Positions 2,677 to 21,213 of a stretch of 38,530 nucleotides of DNA are shown piece by piece; the first letter of the stretch is position 1, and the number at the start of each line of letters is the position of its first letter. The notes beneath the pieces are model-generated. The model searched no databases, was not told the DNA's origin, and was given only the letters and a program-made list of their open reading frames with translations. Origin of the DNA: Acidobacteriota bacterium (GTDB lineage: Bacteria; Acidobacteriota; Terriglobia; Acidiferrales; UBA7541); the NCBI GenBank assembly GCA_021818865.1, contig JAKASX010000025.1, positions 1 to 38,530 on the forward strand, written 5' to 3'. The position numbers and the translations under genes are program-made.

Positions 2677-5607
2677 ATGAGCGGCGAAAGCTTCCTGCCT
2701 GACACGATTACGATGTTCGGCGGCTGGGTGCCGAATGCGGCGCCACAGGCGCTGCCCAACGGGATGTCGTGGGACTGCCAAGATGTGGACCTGATCGCCG
2801 GCGGCGCCCGCACGCGGCCCGGACTCGTGGCGCAGTTCCCTTCCCTCACGGGCGGTGCATACATCAACTACCTCAAGACGTTTCCGACACTCAATGGAAC
2901 GAACCGGCTGCTGGTGCTCGATTCGCTGGGGAATTTTTACAAGGAAAACCCGACGGGAACGCTGGAATTGGTCATTTCGGCGCTGGCCGACGGAGCGTTG
3001 TGCCGCTCGCAAACACAGTTTGGGCGCGAGTATCTGGCGCTCAGCGACGGGAAGGTGGGAATCGATCTGCCGAGGCAGTTCGACGACACGTATTTCGATC
3101 GCGTAAGCCAGGTGGGCCCGGGCTCGGCGCCGACCGTGGCCGACGCGGGCGACGCGATCGAGAACATCGCCCGGTCGGCGAACGTGGTGACGGTCACGTG
3201 CCAATACGCCCACACGCTGAATGTCGGCGACAACGCGACGATCGAGAATGTGGCGGGCGGAACGACGAGTTTCAACGGGACGTTTGCCGTTGCATCGGTG
3301 CCAAACGCGTATCAATTCACCTACGCTCAGACCGGAGCGAATGAATCGGGCACGGGCGGCGAGGTGATGGTGCCGGGAAACGTTTCGGCCGGGCTGCACC
3401 AGGTTGCCGTCGCGTTCATCACACGGCAGGGGTATTGGACGCGGCCTTCGCCGCCGGCGCAATGGACCGCTACGGGCGGCTTCAAGGCACAGCTCACCGG
3501 AATTCCGACCGGGCCGGCAAACGTCACGGGGCGGCTCATTCTGTTTACCGCTGCTGGACAATCGGGAGCGCCGAGCTTCTACACGATTCCGCCGTCGAAC
3601 ACCCCTTCCACATCGCCAACGGCGATGCTGATTCCCGACAACACGACGACGGAAGCAACGTTTGATTTTTCGGACACCGAACTGCTAGCGGGGACTTCGG
3701 TCGGTTATTTGTTCGACCTCGTGGAACTGCCGGAGCAAGCCGGCGTCATTGCTTACAGCGACCGGCTGTTCTGGTGGGGCGAACGGACGGGAATGTGGAG
3801 CGGGAAAAACGGCGTCTGGCTGAATCTGACCTTTGATGGAGGGTGGAACGGGAACGTACCGCTCGGCTGGACGGCGGACGCGACCTACGGAGCGGGCGGC
3901 AGCCGTGAATCGACAACCGTTGCGTGGGGCGACGCCTACCGGATCACAGGGGACGGGGTAACGGCGGTCCGAGGGGAAATCACGCAGTCCGCGGTCGCGG
4001 ACTACAACGGTGTGCAGCTCATTTCCGCGAACACGGCGTATTCGGTGCGAGCGCGGGTGATGGGCGTGGGGCTGCTGAGTTCCGGCACACTGCATGTGAA
4101 TCTGGCTTCGGCGTCGCAAAATTTCGTAACGGCTGGGCTGGCCGTGGCCTACAACCAAGTCTCGAGCGGAGGCTACGCCGAGTTCGTTGCAGACTTGACC
4201 GATCCATTGGCTTCGATTCCGAGCGATTTGGTACTTCAGGTTTACGTCGACGGGACGCCGTCGAACGCCGCTTATTTTCTGATGGACAACATCGAGATCT
4301 ACGAGACGGCGCTCGGCGAAATCGCCGGATCGGTGCTCCGCGGCAGCCGGGTGAACGACCCGGAAAGCTACGACGGCGTGCAGGGACTGATGATCGTCTC
4401 GGCGAACGATGGGCAGCGAATCACGAACGCCTTTGTGCTGCGCAACAACCTTTACATCGTCAAAGAGCGATCGCTGTATGTGACGGCGGACGACGGAGTG
4501 AACGAGCCGGCGCTGTGGGCGATTCAGCAAGTTTCGAACCGCGTGGGGACGCCATCGGTGCACGGCGTCGGGATGACGGATGAAGCGGCCGTGATCGCCG
4601 GCCAAAATGGAGTCTTCGTCTTCGATGGCACTCCGCCGCAGAAAATCAGTCAGGAAATCCAATCCGATCAGAGGAATCTGGCTACCGGAACGGGCCCGGT
4701 GTGGGACGAAGTGAATTGGGACGCCGGCGAAGCGATATGGGTGGTTCTGCAGGAAGACCGGAAGCGCCTGCTCGTCGGCGTGCCAACCGGCGCGGCAACG
4801 CAGCCGAACTGGACTCTGACCATGCAGTTCTCTTATGGATCGCAAAGCCTGGTTGATGTCACGGAATTTCGCGTATTCCGGGACGCTCCGCTGGCGCGGG
4901 GTTGGTGCCCGTGGACAATTGCGGCGAATTGCGCCGCGGCAATCGCCCGGCCGAGCGGCGACTTTCCGCTCCTGCTCGGATCAAACGACGGCAGCGGGAA
5001 CATCCTGGAATTGAGCGAAGGCGTCTACAGCGACAACGGCAAGGTGATCCCGGCATATTACGGGATGTATTTTGCGAATGGATCTTCCTTCGGGCTGCTC
5101 CCGATCCAGAGGAAGCTCTTCGGCTATTTGCGGACGAACGTCGAAGGACAAGGGACGCTGCTGGTGGCCGGTTTCCCGATTCCCAACCGCGCGGTCGCCA
5201 TTGTGTCGGTTTCACGGGCGGGGAACGTGGCGACCGCAACGACTGCCACGCCTCACGGTTTTTACGAAGGGCAGACGGCGGATGTTGGCGGGGTTGCAGA
5301 CGCGAGCTTCAACGGTCCAGTCGTTATCATTGGCGTTCCGAGCACAACCCAGTTCACGTATGCAAGCGCGGGGATAAACGGAACGTCGACGGGCGGATCA
5401 GCCGTTCCTCTGTTGGGCAGTCTCGCGCTCAGCAGTCCGGCTTCGGCAACCGGGAACCTGGAATTGCCTTTGAACGTTTCCGGCGAGTCGCTTTCCGTGC
5501 GATTCGCCATCGACAGGGGCGGGAGCGCGGGCGATTGGTTTTGCGTGTCCCAGCGGGTGGAGCAGTATATGAAACCGGATCCGTGGGCTCCCTTTGGAAG
5601 CAATTGA
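2677..5607 (+). CDS. Large phage structural protein, tail/stabilisation type, with two repeated beta modules
   Basis: This 976-aa protein has a GAGG ribosome-binding site 8 bases upstream. Its opening (FGGWVPNAAPQALPNGMSW, then DLIAGGARTRPGL) resembles phage stabilisation or tail-hub proteins that map inputs such as 'all ids / RPG-x'. The body is rich in beta strands with recurring aromatic-Gly turns, suggesting propeller-like architecture. A module of about 70 residues occurs twice, at ~164-235 and ~842-912. Each copy has the pattern 'N-V-x-T-x-T-x-x-x-H-x-x-x-x-G-x-x-x-x-x-x-x-G', then 'S-F-N-G' and 'F-T-Y-A'. It overlaps the lysin start by one base. The structural role is well supported; the precise part of the particle is not. 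Confidence 0.7.
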   Translation: MSGESFLPDTITMFGGWVPNAAPQALPNGMSWDCQDVDLIAGGARTRPGLVAQFPSLTGGAYINYLKTFPTLNGTNRLLVLDSLGNFYKENPTGTLELVISALADGALCRSQTQFGREYLALSDGKVGIDLPRQFDDTYFDRVSQVGPGSAPTVADAGDAIENIARSANVVTVTCQYAHTLNVGDNATIENVAGGTTSFNGTFAVASVPNAYQFTYAQTGANESGTGGEVMVPGNVSAGLHQVAVAFITRQGYWTRPSPPAQWTATGGFKAQLTGIPTGPANVTGRLILFTAAGQSGAPSFYTIPPSNTPSTSPTAMLIPDNTTTEATFDFSDTELLAGTSVGYLFDLVELPEQAGVIAYSDRLFWWGERTGMWSGKNGVWLNLTFDGGWNGNVPLGWTADATYGAGGSRESTTVAWGDAYRITGDGVTAVRGEITQSAVADYNGVQLISANTAYSVRARVMGVGLLSSGTLHVNLASASQNFVTAGLAVAYNQVSSGGYAEFVADLTDPLASIPSDLVLQVYVDGTPSNAAYFLMDNIEIYETALGEIAGSVLRGSRVNDPESYDGVQGLMIVSANDGQRITNAFVLRNNLYIVKERSLYVTADDGVNEPALWAIQQVSNRVGTPSVHGVGMTDEAAVIAGQNGVFVFDGTPPQKISQEIQSDQRNLATGTGPVWDEVNWDAGEAIWVVLQEDRKRLLVGVPTGAATQPNWTLTMQFSYGSQSLVDVTEFRVFRDAPLARGWCPWTIAANCAAAIARPSGDFPLLLGSNDGSGNILELSEGVYSDNGKVIPAYYGMYFANGSSFGLLPIQRKLFGYLRTNVEGQGTLLVAGFPIPNRAVAIVSVSRAGNVATATTATPHGFYEGQTADVGGVADASFNGPVVIIGVPSTTQFTYASAGINGTSTGGSAVPLLGSLALSSPASATGNLELPLNVSGESLSVRFAIDRGGSAGDWFCVSQRVEQYMKPDPWAPFGSN

Positions 5608-13143: not shown

Positions 13144-13218
13144 TCCGGGGTCGGCTAACCGGTAGGCCACCAGACTTTGGATCTGGTTATCCTGGTTCGA
13201 GTCCAGGCCCCGGAACCA
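13144..13218 (+). tRNA. tRNA-Gln (UUG), CCA encoded
   Basis: All four arms fold. The acceptor stem is tccgggg/ccccgga (13144-13150 with 13208-13214), and the D arm is ggct/ggcc. The anticodon stem is ccaga/tctgg with loop ctttgga, giving anticodon TTG for CAA codons. The T arm is cctgg/ccagg with ttcgagt. The discriminator is A at 13215 and CCA is encoded at 13216-13218. Its 5' side faces the prophage, so it is not in the usual orientation for a tRNA 3'-end attachment site. Confidence 0.95.
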
Positions 13219-13320: not shown

Positions 13321-15939
13321 TCAAAAATGCAATTCGATCTTTCGTTCGACATATCCAGACCCCTCGAACGAAATTTCCAGGCGAATGCCTTGTGCGGTTC
13401 TCTCGACGGTCGCTCCGTCGGCCAACACATCCCGAAGCTGCGTAATCGCGTCGAGCGCGTAATTCCGGCCGCCGCGCCCAGCCACAGTCAGTGTAATCAC
13501 GCCATGGTCCCCGGCGAGTTGCTGCTCGACGCCTAGAATCTTGAGCTGCACGGAACGGGCGCCAGGCTGCGGATGCGGCACGGGCGGGACGATTGCAAGG
13601 CCGCCGCTGTAGTCGATAGCGACGTCGGCCTGGCGCTCGAGCCGAAAATGAACGGAAACGCGCGAAAGTGCGCTCGAATCGAGTTGGCGGAACGCGATCG
13701 CCATTCCATTCACCCTGACGCGAGTCACGTGCGCGCCCCAGGGCAAAGTCGGCGAGAAACGCACATCGAGCGGCTTCGGCGAATCGTCTTCGAGGCGCAA
13801 GTTCATCCGCGCAGCCGATTGACTGATTTTCCCGCTCAGATGATGCATTCCAAATCTGAAACTCTTGAATCGCACCCACGGCCACTGCGCCGGCAGCGCC
13901 GGCCGAAATGTGAGTTCGTCCCGCGGCGCGTCCGGGCTGAGCCCCAAAATTCCCCGCACCAGCGGCACGACGACACCCATGGACGAGAACAGTTGGTGCG
14001 GCACGGCGCGTGATTGCGGAATGTAACGGTCGCCGGTCATCTGCTCGGGCAGTGCCCCGGGCGTTTCGATTCCGGTGAGCTGGGCGATCGCGCTCCAGGT
14101 GGCGAACCCGGCTAGCGGCTGATCGTTGCGATATTGCGCCAATGCAACCAGGCCGCTGATGAACGGCCACACGCTACCGTTGTTGTAACTGACCGGGTCG
14201 TAGAGCGGATTCTCGTTCGAAAGCCAGCGCGAGCCCCAATCGGTCGCCAAGTCAGGTCGCGCGAATGCCGCGGTCGCCTCAAAAGCCTTTCGCTCGCCAA
14301 TCGCCTGCGGCTCCAGCGCGAGCAGCACCGCCGGCCAGCTCCCATCGAACGAAGCCTGTTTCCCGCTCGCCGTCAGGCCGAAAACGAGCCGCTGGCTTTT
14401 CTCGTTCCACCACTCGGTCGCGATCGAACGCTCGGCTCGCGCAAGCCGCATGGAAGCGTCGGCCGCGAGCCGCGCGTCTCCCGTCGCCGTCGCCAGATCG
14501 CGCATCGAGCGGAGCGCGGCGAGCCAGAAGCCTTCGAGGTAAACGTCTTTCACCACCTTGTCGCGCAGCACGCCGACTTCGACCGCAGCCAGCCCGGCCT
14601 TGGTGTTGTCCATCAAGCCGTCCGGATCGAGCGTCGAAAGGCAATACGCGTAGGCCTTTTGCGCCGAAGGCCAGAATTCGTCCAGAAATTTCCGGTTGCC
14701 GCTTCGCCGCCAATACTGATCGAGCGCGTAGAGGTACATCGGCGTCGTATCGGCGTGGTAGTAAGCGAAATTGTATTTGCCGAACCAATCCACCAGATCG
14801 ACGCTCTGCGTCATCTCGTGCATCATCTTGCCGTCGCCGCGCTGGTGTTTCTTCAGGAAACGCAGCGCCTGCCGCGCGCCAGCCAAGTCTCCGTAATCTT
14901 CGAGCGCCCAGCCGTTCATCAGCGCGTCGCCGCCGAACCACCAATCGAATCCCGGCCGCTGGCTCGATCCCGACGGCGCGTAACCGGCCACCATCCCGCA
15001 ACCCAGGCCCGGATGGCACACCCAACCCGCATTCAGCGCCAGTTTCGCCCACAGCCACGCGCGATTCCATTTCCGGTCGGGCGTTTCTATTTGGGTTGTG
15101 CGCGCCAGAAAATTTCGCGCGTCGGTCACGCGAGCCTGATACAACGCGGGAATCTCCCGCAGCACGCTCGCGTAGACGCCCTCGGCCTGCTCAAGATTTT
15201 TCATTCCCAGCGCCATCACCACAGGGAAAAGCGAAGCGCGCGCCTCGCCCGGCGTCACGTGGATGTCGAATTCCGTTTCGCCGCTCGCCAGCCGGTGGCC
15301 GACGAACTGCGTGTAGGCCGACGCCGCGGGCGAACCGACGAGCGCGGTCGGCAGATTCGTCGCGTCGGTGAGCGCGAACGCCTTGTCGCGGTTCACCCAA
15401 TAGCTGTATTGCCCGCCGAAACTCGCCGGCCACATTGGCTGAAAATCGGGAGCGAACAGCACCTTGATCGTCAACGGTTTCGCCGTGTCCACGTCGAACA
15501 GCAGCACGATAGCCGGCTCGTCGTCGGGCGCGAAAATCGTTTCGCGCACCGTGAACGACGGATCGGCGTAGACCAGCGTGGTGGATTCCGGCCGCGTGAT
15601 CACCTGCGCCATCAAGCCGTCGCCTTCCACGGGCTGCAGCGCGCCCTGCGGCTGAAATTCCAGATGAAAATCCTGCAGCACCTTGATCGGATAGATCCAC
15701 GCCTCGAATCGCCCGCTGCGCCAGCCAAGCACGGCAGAGCGCTCGCCCGTGGCGTCGAAATAGAGGTTTGGCAGCGCCGCCGAGCGCAGTTCCGGCCCGC
15801 TTTTCGGCAACTCGAATCGCGGCACGCCTGCCGGCGCAGGTGCCGTCTGCTGCGCGCGGCAAGGCGCGGCGAAAACCGCCGCCGCAAGCAACAGCCACGC
15901 TCCCGCCAGTTTCCCACTCGCCTTCACAATTCCTCGCAT
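13321..15939 (-). CDS. Secreted (alpha/alpha)6-barrel glycoside hydrolase, glycogen-debranching-enzyme-like
   Basis: This 872-aa protein starts at ATG 15939 with GGAGA about 6 bases upstream; the ATG 21 bases earlier lacks a ribosome-binding site. A signal peptide (residues ~1-30, LAGAWLLLAAAVFAAPCRA) implies export. Residues ~30-270 form a beta-sandwich. From ~290 to ~690 are six-hairpin barrel motifs: PGFDWWFGGDALMNGWALEDYGD, GDGKMMHEMTQ, YHADTTPMYLYALDQY, DNTKAGLAA, and GYVERK at the very end of the C-terminal beta region. These match COG3408-type amylo-1,6-glucosidase/trehalase-like enzymes. Substrate is unknown; acidic residues in the barrel could serve in catalysis but I cannot assign them. 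It diverges from the TIR-protein gene. Confidence 0.75.
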   Translation of the reverse strand: MRGIVKASGKLAGAWLLLAAAVFAAPCRAQQTAPAPAGVPRFELPKSGPELRSAALPNLYFDATGERSAVLGWRSGRFEAWIYPIKVLQDFHLEFQPQGALQPVEGDGLMAQVITRPESTTLVYADPSFTVRETIFAPDDEPAIVLLFDVDTAKPLTIKVLFAPDFQPMWPASFGGQYSYWVNRDKAFALTDATNLPTALVGSPAASAYTQFVGHRLASGETEFDIHVTPGEARASLFPVVMALGMKNLEQAEGVYASVLREIPALYQARVTDARNFLARTTQIETPDRKWNRAWLWAKLALNAGWVCHPGLGCGMVAGYAPSGSSQRPGFDWWFGGDALMNGWALEDYGDLAGARQALRFLKKHQRGDGKMMHEMTQSVDLVDWFGKYNFAYYHADTTPMYLYALDQYWRRSGNRKFLDEFWPSAQKAYAYCLSTLDPDGLMDNTKAGLAAVEVGVLRDKVVKDVYLEGFWLAALRSMRDLATATGDARLAADASMRLARAERSIATEWWNEKSQRLVFGLTASGKQASFDGSWPAVLLALEPQAIGERKAFEATAAFARPDLATDWGSRWLSNENPLYDPVSYNNGSVWPFISGLVALAQYRNDQPLAGFATWSAIAQLTGIETPGALPEQMTGDRYIPQSRAVPHQLFSSMGVVVPLVRGILGLSPDAPRDELTFRPALPAQWPWVRFKSFRFGMHHLSGKISQSAARMNLRLEDDSPKPLDVRFSPTLPWGAHVTRVRVNGMAIAFRQLDSSALSRVSVHFRLERQADVAIDYSGGLAIVPPVPHPQPGARSVQLKILGVEQQLAGDHGVITLTVAGRGGRNYALDAITQLRDVLADGATVERTAQGIRLEISFEGSGYVERKIELHF

Positions 15940-16116
15940 AGTCTCTCCGGGCCTAATCATCGGGCTGGCGATGCTAGGAAAGCCTTACGCTACATGTCAA
16001 CGGATTTCTCCGCAGCGCATTGCCCTACGCCAGGTTGTATTCTCGGCACGCGCGTGCACCCGGCGTCTTGTGGCGCTCGGTAACCGATGCTAATCTCAAT
16101 TCTCCCTTCCAAACGT

Positions 16117-17361
16117 ATGTCCTTGCGCACACTCTACCTGCAATGCCAGCCGTCTGCCGATGGCAATGGCGGCGGAATCGGCGAAAAGCTGTTCGCCGAG
16201 ATTCGCTCGCGTTCCGAGGATTGCCTGGCCGCTCATCGCGTCTTGCCCGCGCTCGTGGCCGGCGAAATGGACCCGAGCTTCGCGCGCCAATCCGTTTCCG
16301 AGGAACTCCTGCGCGAATTCGCTCCCAATCTGATTTACATCGAGGGAGGTCTCTTCGCCGACCCTCGCGGCTCGTGGAAAATCGATTGGCCGGTGATCGA
16401 GGATTTGATTGATTCAGGCGCAGTGCTGATTCTGGCCGATTGCGGCGCGCGCGAATTGTGTCGGCACCGTCCCCGTTATGAATACGCGGCCCGTTTCCTG
16501 CGCGCCCGCGCCCAATTCAGCGGTAACGGCGTCGTCTACGCCACCGACGCCGAACACTCGTGGCAAACCCCCTCCCAAGTCGTTTGCCAACCCGCGAAAA
16601 TGATGATTTCCGAATGGCTCAGGCCCGCCTGGGACGGCGTCGAGGAGGTCGTCGTCGGCAATCCGGCCCAGCTCTGTTCCTGGCAGGATTTGCCCGCATC
16701 CACCAACCTCGGCACCTCGCGAATCATCGAGCCGAAAGGGTCCGGCGAGAGCGCCCGCGTCGAGCCCGGCATTTTCGCCTCGACCGCTCGCTGCGGCCTG
16801 GGACACGTCGTCTTCCTGGCCGGCGAAGTTTCCGCCGACAAGTGGACCGAGCGCTGCCCGGGGAATCCCATCTGGCTGGCGAACCTGGCCGAACTGCTTC
16901 ATCACGAGGCGCTGCAAAGCCGCGCCCGTTTCCGCGCCGATTTCCGCTGGCCTTTCTCGCTCTTTCTTTCCCATCGCTCGGTCAATCGCCAGCTCGTCGC
17001 CCGCGTTTCCGCCGCTCTGCAATCGAGCGGCGTCGAAACCTGCAACGATATCGCCCGATTCACGCCTCCCGATTCCCTGGTGCAGGAAACCGGCCGGGCG
17101 CTCGAAACGATGACGCATTTCGTGTTGTTCTGGTCGCGCGCCTGCCTGGGCGCGCCGTGGGTGGAACGCGAACTGGCAACCGCCCTCACGATGGTCGTCG
17201 AACGGAAACTGCCTCTGCTGGTTGTCCGCCTGGATTCGACGCCTGTTCCCAAACTCCTGAACGACGCGTTTCGCATCGAAGCGATTGGAATGTCGCCGCA
17301 CGAACTCGCCCAAAGCCTGCTCGACGGAATCCAGCGCATCGCGCGCAACGCCCGCGCCTGA
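16117..17361 (+). CDS. TIR-domain protein with N-terminal ThuA/GATase-like domain
   Basis: This 414-aa protein has two parts. Residues ~1-265 look like a class-I-glutamine-amidotransferase/ThuA-type Rossmann fold: NLIYIEGGLFADPRGSW (71-87), DLIDSGAVLILADCG, and GLGHVVFLAGE (227-237) leading to NPIWLANLAELL. The last pair resembles the 'G-x-G-x-V-x-x-x...N-x-x-x-N' ending of ThuA-like domains. Residues ~278-395 are a TIR domain: WPFSLFLSHRSVNRQL (278-293), an alpha/beta core, FVLFWSRACLGAPWVERELATAL with the candidate catalytic glutamate at E352 (or E350), and LPLLVVRLDSTPVP. TIR domains in bacteria commonly degrade NAD+ or make cyclic ADP-ribose signals in antiphage defence. ATG 16087 is an alternative start; a TGCTAAT -10-like box overlapping it favours 16117. 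Confidence 0.75.
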   Translation: MSLRTLYLQCQPSADGNGGGIGEKLFAEIRSRSEDCLAAHRVLPALVAGEMDPSFARQSVSEELLREFAPNLIYIEGGLFADPRGSWKIDWPVIEDLIDSGAVLILADCGARELCRHRPRYEYAARFLRARAQFSGNGVVYATDAEHSWQTPSQVVCQPAKMMISEWLRPAWDGVEEVVVGNPAQLCSWQDLPASTNLGTSRIIEPKGSGESARVEPGIFASTARCGLGHVVFLAGEVSADKWTERCPGNPIWLANLAELLHHEALQSRARFRADFRWPFSLFLSHRSVNRQLVARVSAALQSSGVETCNDIARFTPPDSLVQETGRALETMTHFVLFWSRACLGAPWVERELATALTMVVERKLPLLVVRLDSTPVPKLLNDAFRIEAIGMSPHELAQSLLDGIQRIARNARA

Positions 17362-17436: not shown

Positions 17437-17838
17437 CTATCCCATCGCGCTCGCGCTTTCCACTTGAATCCTGTAAATCACGCGAATCTCCGCCTTTTGA
17501 CGGTATGGGTAGCTGTCCACGCCCAGGTATTTCTTCGCCAGACTGTCGATGTGCGCATCGGCTCCCGTTTCGGTGATTTCCACAACGCGCCCGCGCAGTT
17601 CCAGGTAACGATAGGGATTCTCCGGGTCCGTCACGCACAGGGAAATGCGCGGCTCGCGCCGCATATTGCGATCTTTCTGGCGACCCTTGGCCGAATTCAC
17701 GCGCACGAAGCCGTCGGCGTAGTCGCACCACACCGGCGTCACCTGCGGCGAGCCGTCGGGCATCAGCGTTCCCAGATGGGCGAAAGCCTTTTTGGACGTG
17801 AGCAGGTCTATGTATTGTTCCGGAATCGAGCCAGCCAT
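17437..17838 (-). CDS. PPOX-class (F420-dependent type) flavin/deazaflavin oxidoreductase
   Basis: This 133-aa protein has a split-barrel FMN/F420-binding fold of the pyridoxamine-5'-phosphate-oxidase superfamily. Hallmarks in order are SIPEQYIDLLTSKKAFAHLG, MPDGSPQVTPVWCDY, VRVNSAKGRQKDRNMRREPR (cofactor phosphate contacts), DPENPYRYLELRGRVVE, and KKYLGVDSYPY. This pattern and length match Rv1155-like F420-dependent proteins. The start at 17838 matches the family N-terminus; GTG 17886 would add 16 residues. It faces the TIR gene convergently. The exact substrate is unknown. Confidence 0.85.
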   Translation of the reverse strand: MAGSIPEQYIDLLTSKKAFAHLGTLMPDGSPQVTPVWCDYADGFVRVNSAKGRQKDRNMRREPRISLCVTDPENPYRYLELRGRVVEITETGADAHIDSLAKKYLGVDSYPYRQKAEIRVIYRIQVESASAMG

Positions 17839-18086
17839 CGGTTGCACCTGCCTTTCGCGGTTTTCCAATCGCGGAATGTATAGCACTTTTCCGAAACGCG
17901 AGCGAGCTTCCGACGAATCGCCCGCGCGCTTGCGCTCGCTCCGCGAACTGTAATCTCTTCGCGAAAATGGGCCGCTTCACCACACCTGTTTCACTCTGGA
18001 GCATGTTCTTTCCGCCTCATTCGCAATCTTCTGTGTTCCCACTCGTTTTTTGGCACTGCGCCTGCTGTCTTCCACTCGGCCACCGA

Positions 18087-20239: not shown

Positions 20240-20425
20240 ATGGGCGAGCATCTCTTCGTAAATTATTACAGGTGCCCAGAGGACGGGACGGCGTGGGCCA
20301 TGACTTGGAGTTGCATGTGCGACGACCGCTGCCCGACGTGCAGTCGCGAAATCGAACCTCATAGGAGCGAGGATTTATTTGGCGAGACAGGCTCCGCTGT
20401 GTCGCCCGGAGGCAAGCCCGATTGA
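20240..20425 (+). CDS. Small zinc-ribbon protein upstream of the DpnI homologue
   Basis: This 61-aa protein has GGAG 6 bases before ATG 20240. YRCPEDGTAWAMTWSCMCDDRCPTCSREIEP contains five Cys (C12, C25, C27, C31, C34), enough for one zinc site. It follows a widespread small-protein pattern (CP-x-x-G-T-x-W...W-S-C-x-C-x-D-R-C-P-x-C). Its last codons overlap the TTG start of the nuclease gene (TTGA), so the two are translated together. It might be a companion or modulator of the nuclease, but such small proteins also occur alone on plasmids and phages. Confidence 0.6.
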   Translation: MGEHLFVNYYRCPEDGTAWAMTWSCMCDDRCPTCSREIEPHRSEDLFGETGSAVSPGGKPD

Positions 20426-21213
20426 TTCCCCAAATGCCGGCTCACCTTGCAGAGGGATATGAGAATCCCTCCCAACAAACGAGGGTAGTGAGCGAGGCTT
20501 GGGCGGAGCGAAACCTATTCTGCCCTTGCTGCCCGTCGCCGCGCCTTGAGCTCACAAACCCCAACACGCGTGTCGTAGACCTCTCGTGCCGTGGATGCGG
20601 CGCCCGGTTCCAGTTAAAGGCCCGATCGAAACCGCTTGCTACGCGAGTCACGGATGCTGGCTACGACGCAATGGCCGGGGCAGTCGAGCGCGGGGATGCG
20701 CCCAACCTTTTCGTTCTCGACTACGACCGAGCAAAATGGCAGGCTCGGAATCTGCTTCTGATACCCCGGTACGCGCTCTCCCTCTCGTGCATTGAAAAGC
20801 GTCGGCCGCTCGGCCCGAAAGCCCGACGCCATGGCTGGGTCGGATGCAACATTCTGCTGGCAAATATTCCACCTGACGCCCGGATTCCTGTTCTGACCGA
20901 CGGCGCCGTGGAACGGCCGGCGCGCGTGCGCCAGCTCTACGCCCGGCTGAAACCTCTGGAAGGGCAACAGCATGATGCACGCGGCTGGACCCTGGACGTA
21001 TTACGTGTCGTCAGAGGCCTACGCCTCGAACGGTTCTCTTTGGCGGATATTTACGCACGGGAAGCCGAACTCCAGGGGCTGCATCCCAATAACCGAAATG
21101 TGCGCCCCAAGATTCGCCAGCAGCTACAGCGGCTCCGTGACATGGGGCTGGTCGAATTCCTCGGCGGGGGAAGCTACCGCGTCCCAGAACTGGGCGGTAC
21201 CCAAGCTCCCTAG
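20422..21213 (+). CDS. DpnI-family methyl-directed restriction endonuclease
   Basis: This 263-aa protein aligns with DpnI (remembered sequence) almost without gaps: YENPSQQTRVVSEAWAERNLFCP, then zinc ligands C34, C37, C56, C59, then the PD-(D/E)xK core with D53 and K66. The position of the catalytic E64 is Q64 (FQLK). GPKARRHGWVGCNI (131-144) matches the DpnI loop with its base-contacting Trp, and the C-terminal winged helix is conserved (RGWTLDVL..., VRPKIRQQLQRLRDMGLVEF, GSYRV). DpnI cuts GATC when the adenine is methylated, so the gene would destroy dam-methylated foreign DNA. TTG 20422 is the start: GGAGG lies 9 bases upstream, whereas ATG 20434 is too far from it. Confidence 0.88.
   Translation: MIPQMPAHLAEGYENPSQQTRVVSEAWAERNLFCPCCPSPRLELTNPNTRVVDLSCRGCGARFQLKARSKPLATRVTDAGYDAMAGAVERGDAPNLFVLDYDRAKWQARNLLLIPRYALSLSCIEKRRPLGPKARRHGWVGCNILLANIPPDARIPVLTDGAVERPARVRQLYARLKPLEGQQHDARGWTLDVLRVVRGLRLERFSLADIYAREAELQGLHPNNRNVRPKIRQQLQRLRDMGLVEFLGGGSYRVPELGGTQAP

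Follow-up and report, generated by a model that had tools for sequence, protein, structure and literature searches.

A rare fusion of a TIR domain to a predicted ThuA/GATase1-like front domain in Acidobacteriota, a candidate single-gene immune effector

The sensor modules known from bacterial TIR effectors form a limited set. The stretch of DNA analyzed here (38,530 nucleotides of an Acidobacteriota contig, hereafter the window) carries a gene in which a TIR domain, of the kind by which bacterial cell-suicide immunity destroys NAD, follows a large front domain of no recognized family. This raises the question of what the front domain is, and whether one protein could serve as both sensor and effector. 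If so, it would add a further sensor fold to the set. The ORF claimed for this locus in an earlier note is present at 16117-17361. An alternative ATG at 16087 is possible and would add 10 residues; we favor 16117 because the relatives described below start there too (MSLRTLYLQ / MRILYLQ). The features discussed are as follows.

16117..17361, + strand: full gene, front domain plus TIR domain (414 aa, 414 codons)
16117..16941, + strand: N-terminal domain, residues 1-275, alpha/beta, probably of GATase1/ThuA-like fold, without sequence family
16342..16359, + strand: front-domain motif E76-G77-G78-x-F80-A81, invariant in the alignment of relatives
16585..16602, + strand: front-domain block C157-x-P159-x-K161-M162, invariant in the alignment of relatives
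16951..17355, + strand: TIR domain, approximately residues 279-413, by Pfam and fold
17035..17061, + strand: betaB/BB-loop region ETCNDIARF, residues 307-315, with D311 kept and the rest diverged from distant relatives
17158..17172, + strand: WxxxE motif, W348...E352, with the candidate catalytic Glu, aligned with AbTir W204/E208

The C-terminal part of the 414-aa protein is a TIR domain, both by sequence and by fold, as the earlier note had proposed from the motifs FLSHRS, WVEREL and LLVVRLD, all of which are present. Pfam TIR_2 matches residues 283-383 with 51.1 bits against a curated cut-off of 28 (E 2.4e-13), and the only further Pfam row for the whole protein is a related TIR model under its cut-off. 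In the full-length structure model (pLDDT 62), residues 277-413 match the TIR folds of SPARTA, RUN1, RPS4, SARM1 and PdTIR at Z 11-12 over 123-135 residues. MilB and receiver domains reach about equal fold scores, so that fold alone is not decisive and the assignment is carried by the sequence match and the motif. The closest annotated TIRs are those of defence proteins (retron-TIR, SAVED-TIR, ThsB), none of them matched at family level: the PADLOC matches all fall within the TIR region (SAVED-TIR 5e-8, ThsB 5e-5, PDC-S66 0.012), and in NCBIfam the sole match is to the retron-TIR model, confined to its TIR portion and far under the cut-off.

The fusion is real. It recurs in relatives at 34-38% identity, and we found no copy of the front domain that does not carry a TIR; the earlier suggestion of an unusual fusion partner is supported. 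Among 84,980 species genomes, scanned by a method that misses distant relatives because it needs exact short peptide matches, three relatives span the query length: a MAG from the window's own acidobacterial genus (L003, 88% identity), a Chlorobiales MAG (L004, 37% identity, truncated at the 5' end where the contig begins) and a Cytophagales MAG (L005, 34% identity, truncated at the 3' end where the contig stops). We also searched with a profile of the front domain in the order to which L005 belongs (291 genomes), the class of L004 (98), the phylum of L005, where the taxonomy places L004 too (395), and the Acidobacteriota (386). This added no copy, and in the approximately 1170 genomes covered, some of them counted twice, no front domain stood without a TIR. 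Within its own genus the gene is found in two of the five genomes, and the further members of the family that were searched lack it; phylum samples have it in 1/396 and 1/386 genomes. Phages, viral contigs and plasmids gave no full-length copy, plasmids matching in the TIR region only. Across Acidobacteria, Chlorobiales and Cytophagales (three bacterial classes), the architecture is constant, and its occurrence is very rare and patchy.

The gene is maintained under purifying selection. Comparing the window copy with L003, we obtained a dN/dS of 0.16 over the whole gene; the front half taken separately gives 0.13, the TIR half 0.26, and four neighboring genes 0.11-0.21. Synonymous sites have diverged about as much as in the neighbors, and the gene thus predates the split of the window and L003 species. 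On its left lies a glycoside-hydrolase-type gene (13321-15960, - strand) and on its right a PNPOx-family gene (17437-17886, - strand), a 155-aa gene and a sigma-54 regulator, in an order that is the same in L003. Judging by eye, genes with TonB-type repeats fill the slot next to the PNPOx gene in the sister genomes G397 and G396. Because the contents of the slot differ between sister genomes, the gene was gained or exchanged within the genus. The TonB-type C-terminal repeat genes seen by eye in the slot are at L028:8968-10927 and L030:10867-11682.

We found neither a linked partner gene beside the fusion gene nor a classical defence island around it: it occupies a variable slot amid housekeeping genes. 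Enrichment in defence islands, which the earlier note had suggested looking for in the neighborhood, was accordingly not found, both the window copy and the Cytophagales copy lying beside housekeeping genes, by which the latter is surrounded. Next after the Chlorobiales copy comes what by eye is an IS110-type transposase (L004:1740-3164, - strand). Three kilobases downstream in the window, a second variable slot holds a gene for a DpnI-type methyl-directed restriction endonuclease (20422-21213, + strand; Pfam DpnI E 3e-49, PADLOC mREase_II 4e-61), which the corresponding stretches of three genomes of the genus (G396, G397 and G398) lack. Elsewhere in the window, a 976-aa protein (2677-5607, + strand) weakly matches families of virion structural and tail-fibre proteins, and replication-protein-like and ribbon-helix-helix genes run from it to a tRNA-Gln (13144-13218); this region is possibly the remnant of an integrated element.

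Such surroundings would suit a non-immune protein, that is, a housekeeping or metabolic NAD-linked regulator, given the housekeeping neighbors of the window and Cytophagales copies. The distribution argues otherwise: most genomes in the genus and family of the window lack the gene, which is sporadic elsewhere, and we regard this explanation as distinctly improbable. A fixed housekeeping context together with an unconserved catalytic Glu had been named beforehand as evidence against an immune role; what we observed is a patchy gene and a conserved Glu.

That glutamate, E352, previously put forward as the candidate catalytic residue, is exactly the Glu of the WxxxE motif (W348, E352), which is invariant in 4/4 sequences (the window copy and its three relatives). 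Mutations show that the NADase activity of AbTir depends on S140, R151, D167, W204 and E208, among other residues (PMC11374754 Table II). Aligned through L004, these five correspond to S285, A295, D311, W348 and E352 of the window protein. Four of the five (S285, D311, W348 and E352) are kept and invariant, and NADase activity is predicted for the window protein from these retained residues. At the R151 position, the two acidobacterial copies have Ala, against Arg in the Chlorobiales and Glu in the Cytophagales copy. In the betaB/BB-loop stretch, the Chlorobiales sequence is VWFDEEEL and the Cytophagales sequence IWFDKDNM, versus ETCNDIARF in the window copy, where the aromatic residues are lost, and ETCNDIARL in L003. 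We conclude that the loop changed in the acidobacterial lineage. The BB-loop region looks canonical in the distant relatives and altered in both acidobacterial copies.

There are two alternatives for the TIR domain. In the lineage of the window, it may have lost or changed its catalysis and become an assembly domain, the distant relatives still being enzymes. The BB-loop now reading ETCNDIARF/L and the Ala at the R151 position, both shared by the two acidobacterial copies, would fit such a loss, as would a dN/dS that is higher in the TIR half (0.26) than in the front half (0.13). Against it, S285, D311, W348 and E352 are all kept and dN/dS is still well under 1, so that we consider it rather unlikely. 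Alternatively, the TIR could make a messenger of the cyclic ADP-ribose type, as ThsB does, acting on an unlinked effector elsewhere in the genome with no direct depletion of NAD. ThsB and its effector ThsA are normally neighbors, and the window, L003 and Cytophagales copies have no adjoining effector gene; we judge the explanation quite unlikely, even with W348 conserved and a weak match to the ThsB model. The AbTir position matching W348 is needed for the cyclic product (PMC11374754).

What, then, is the front domain? By sequence, it resembles nothing that we searched. Residues 1-275 have no Pfam family, and ThuA (PF06283), to which the earlier note had likened this part, is matched at E<=10 by 0/4 members and nowhere in the own genome of the gene. 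Scans of the whole protein with NCBIfam and PHROG gave no informative family for the front domain, and a PDB sequence search with it returned matches at chance level only. An hhalign comparison with 20 ThuA relatives, with reversed controls, was not significant (P 0.1), the single segment aligned being the C-terminal Gly-x-Gly hairpin of both. Comparison with GATase1_like (PF07090), resting on two true members, stayed at noise level, as did shuffled pairwise scores against ThuA/GATase1_like.

The predicted structure points further. The model of residues 1-277 has a mean pLDDT of 54, with 129-222 below 50 and the first strands and helices at 70-89. With this pLDDT 54 model, the top six VIA-align matches, spanning 162-168 residues, are all ThuA/GATase1-like: 2gk3 (Z 10.2 over 163 residues), 1t0b (9.7), 3soz (9.3), 4jqs (9.0), 4pxy (8.9) and 3rht (8.8). 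We take 2gk3 and 3soz to belong to the GATase1_like group, their entry titles giving only 'cytoplasmic protein'. Receiver domains follow at 8.6 and lower, and at Z 7.0-7.9 come IFT52, OST48 and homoserine succinyltransferase, which have related folds. Foldseek with the same domain model gave no match at E <= 0.001, and a BFVD fold search nothing. SLOG-type nucleotide sensors, which we also considered, do not appear among the 50 VIA-align matches listed, an absence that excludes nothing. A ThuA/GATase1-like fold is thus likely for the front domain, not proven, and at the level of fold only. The part of the earlier assignment that stands is the fold, weakly (the VIA-align best six, on a model of pLDDT 54); the sequence comparisons (Pfam, hhalign, PDB search) did not bear it out.

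The chemistry of the family may not be retained. The GATase cysteine at the expected elbow is not conserved among the four sequences: C109, placed by eye against L055 at about the position of the expected nucleophile, is Asn in L004 and Thr in L005. C157 is invariant, its place in the fold being unsure in the pLDDT 54 model. Residues invariant across the four sequences, such as E76-G77-G78, W87-K88, D108, C157, K161, N197, G199-T200, E245, N250 and N256, may form a binding site.

Starting from a TIR domain with a conserved WxxxE, a fusion present in three classes, purifying selection, patchiness and no linked partner, we propose that the protein is a single-gene immune effector, a standalone TIR NADase whose front domain senses or clusters; we give this reading a probability of about one half. 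It is modeled on SpbK of Bacillus subtilis ICEBs1, in which the front domain binds a phage protein, the TIRs gather, composite active sites form between them, and NAD+ is destroyed (PMC12847820). In the window protein, the front domain, of GATase1/ThuA-like fold and without a conserved GATase nucleophile, would bind an invader protein or metabolite, a phage protein and a small molecule both being candidates for the ligand. Binding would cluster the C-terminal TIR domains into composite active sites; the clustered TIRs would cleave NAD+ via E352, and the infected cell would stop. The parts that we infer are the NADase activity, its activation when the TIRs cluster, the sensing by the front domain and the role in defence.

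The immune reading is supported by the match of S285, D311, W348 and E352 to AbTir residues needed for NADase activity, by the patchy gene, the defence-type nearest TIRs and the DpnI-type gene 3 kb downstream, and by the precedent of SpbK, a sensor-plus-TIR protein able to defend alone (PMC12847820). It is weakened by the lack of a defence island and of full-length copies in phages, viral contigs or plasmids, by the lost BB-loop aromatics and A295 at the AbTir R151 position, and by the low-confidence model of the front domain. More tentatively, we suggest that one-gene TIR NADase immunity might have co-opted a ThuA/GATase1-like domain, devoid of amidotransferase chemistry, to sense infection or to act as a ligand-gated clustering module. 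In the open-access literature searched, we found no description of an infection sensor of ThuA/GATase1-like type and no TIR-ThuA fusion.

Compared with known systems, the protein differs from Thoeris in that glycosidase and PNPOx genes, and no ThsA effector, adjoin it. With ThuA-like and GATase1_like proteins (PF06283, PF07090; PDB 2gk3, 1t0b, 3soz, 3rht) the front domain shares its predicted fold, its length and a C-terminal Gly-x-Gly hairpin with a long helix after it; unlike them, it has no family match and no GATase cysteine at the expected place, and is fused to a TIR. AbTir, BtTir and PdTIR have in common with it the WxxxE, the Ser of betaA and the Asp of betaB, and differ in their front domain, the BB-loop and R151 position being altered in the window copy. 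The TIR-SAVED and TIR-STING effectors of CBASS, SPARTA and retron-TIR likewise join a TIR to a sensing module, which is putative in the window protein, and are among the best TIR model or structure matches; here, however, there is no cyclase, Argonaute or reverse transcriptase within or beside the protein, and the front domain has no sequence kinship with theirs. The front domain of SpbK is a 4-helix bundle of 94 residues, in contrast to the approximately 275 residues of predicted alpha/beta structure in the window protein, directly around whose gene we recognized no mobile element. Both are nevertheless one protein with a sensor front domain, putative here, and a C-terminal TIR NADase, predicted here, without partner gene, the clustering described for SpbK (PMC12847820) being proposed here by analogy. 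The same fusion in three bacterial classes, with no partner gene, would make an easy one-gene test case for bacterial TIR sensing.
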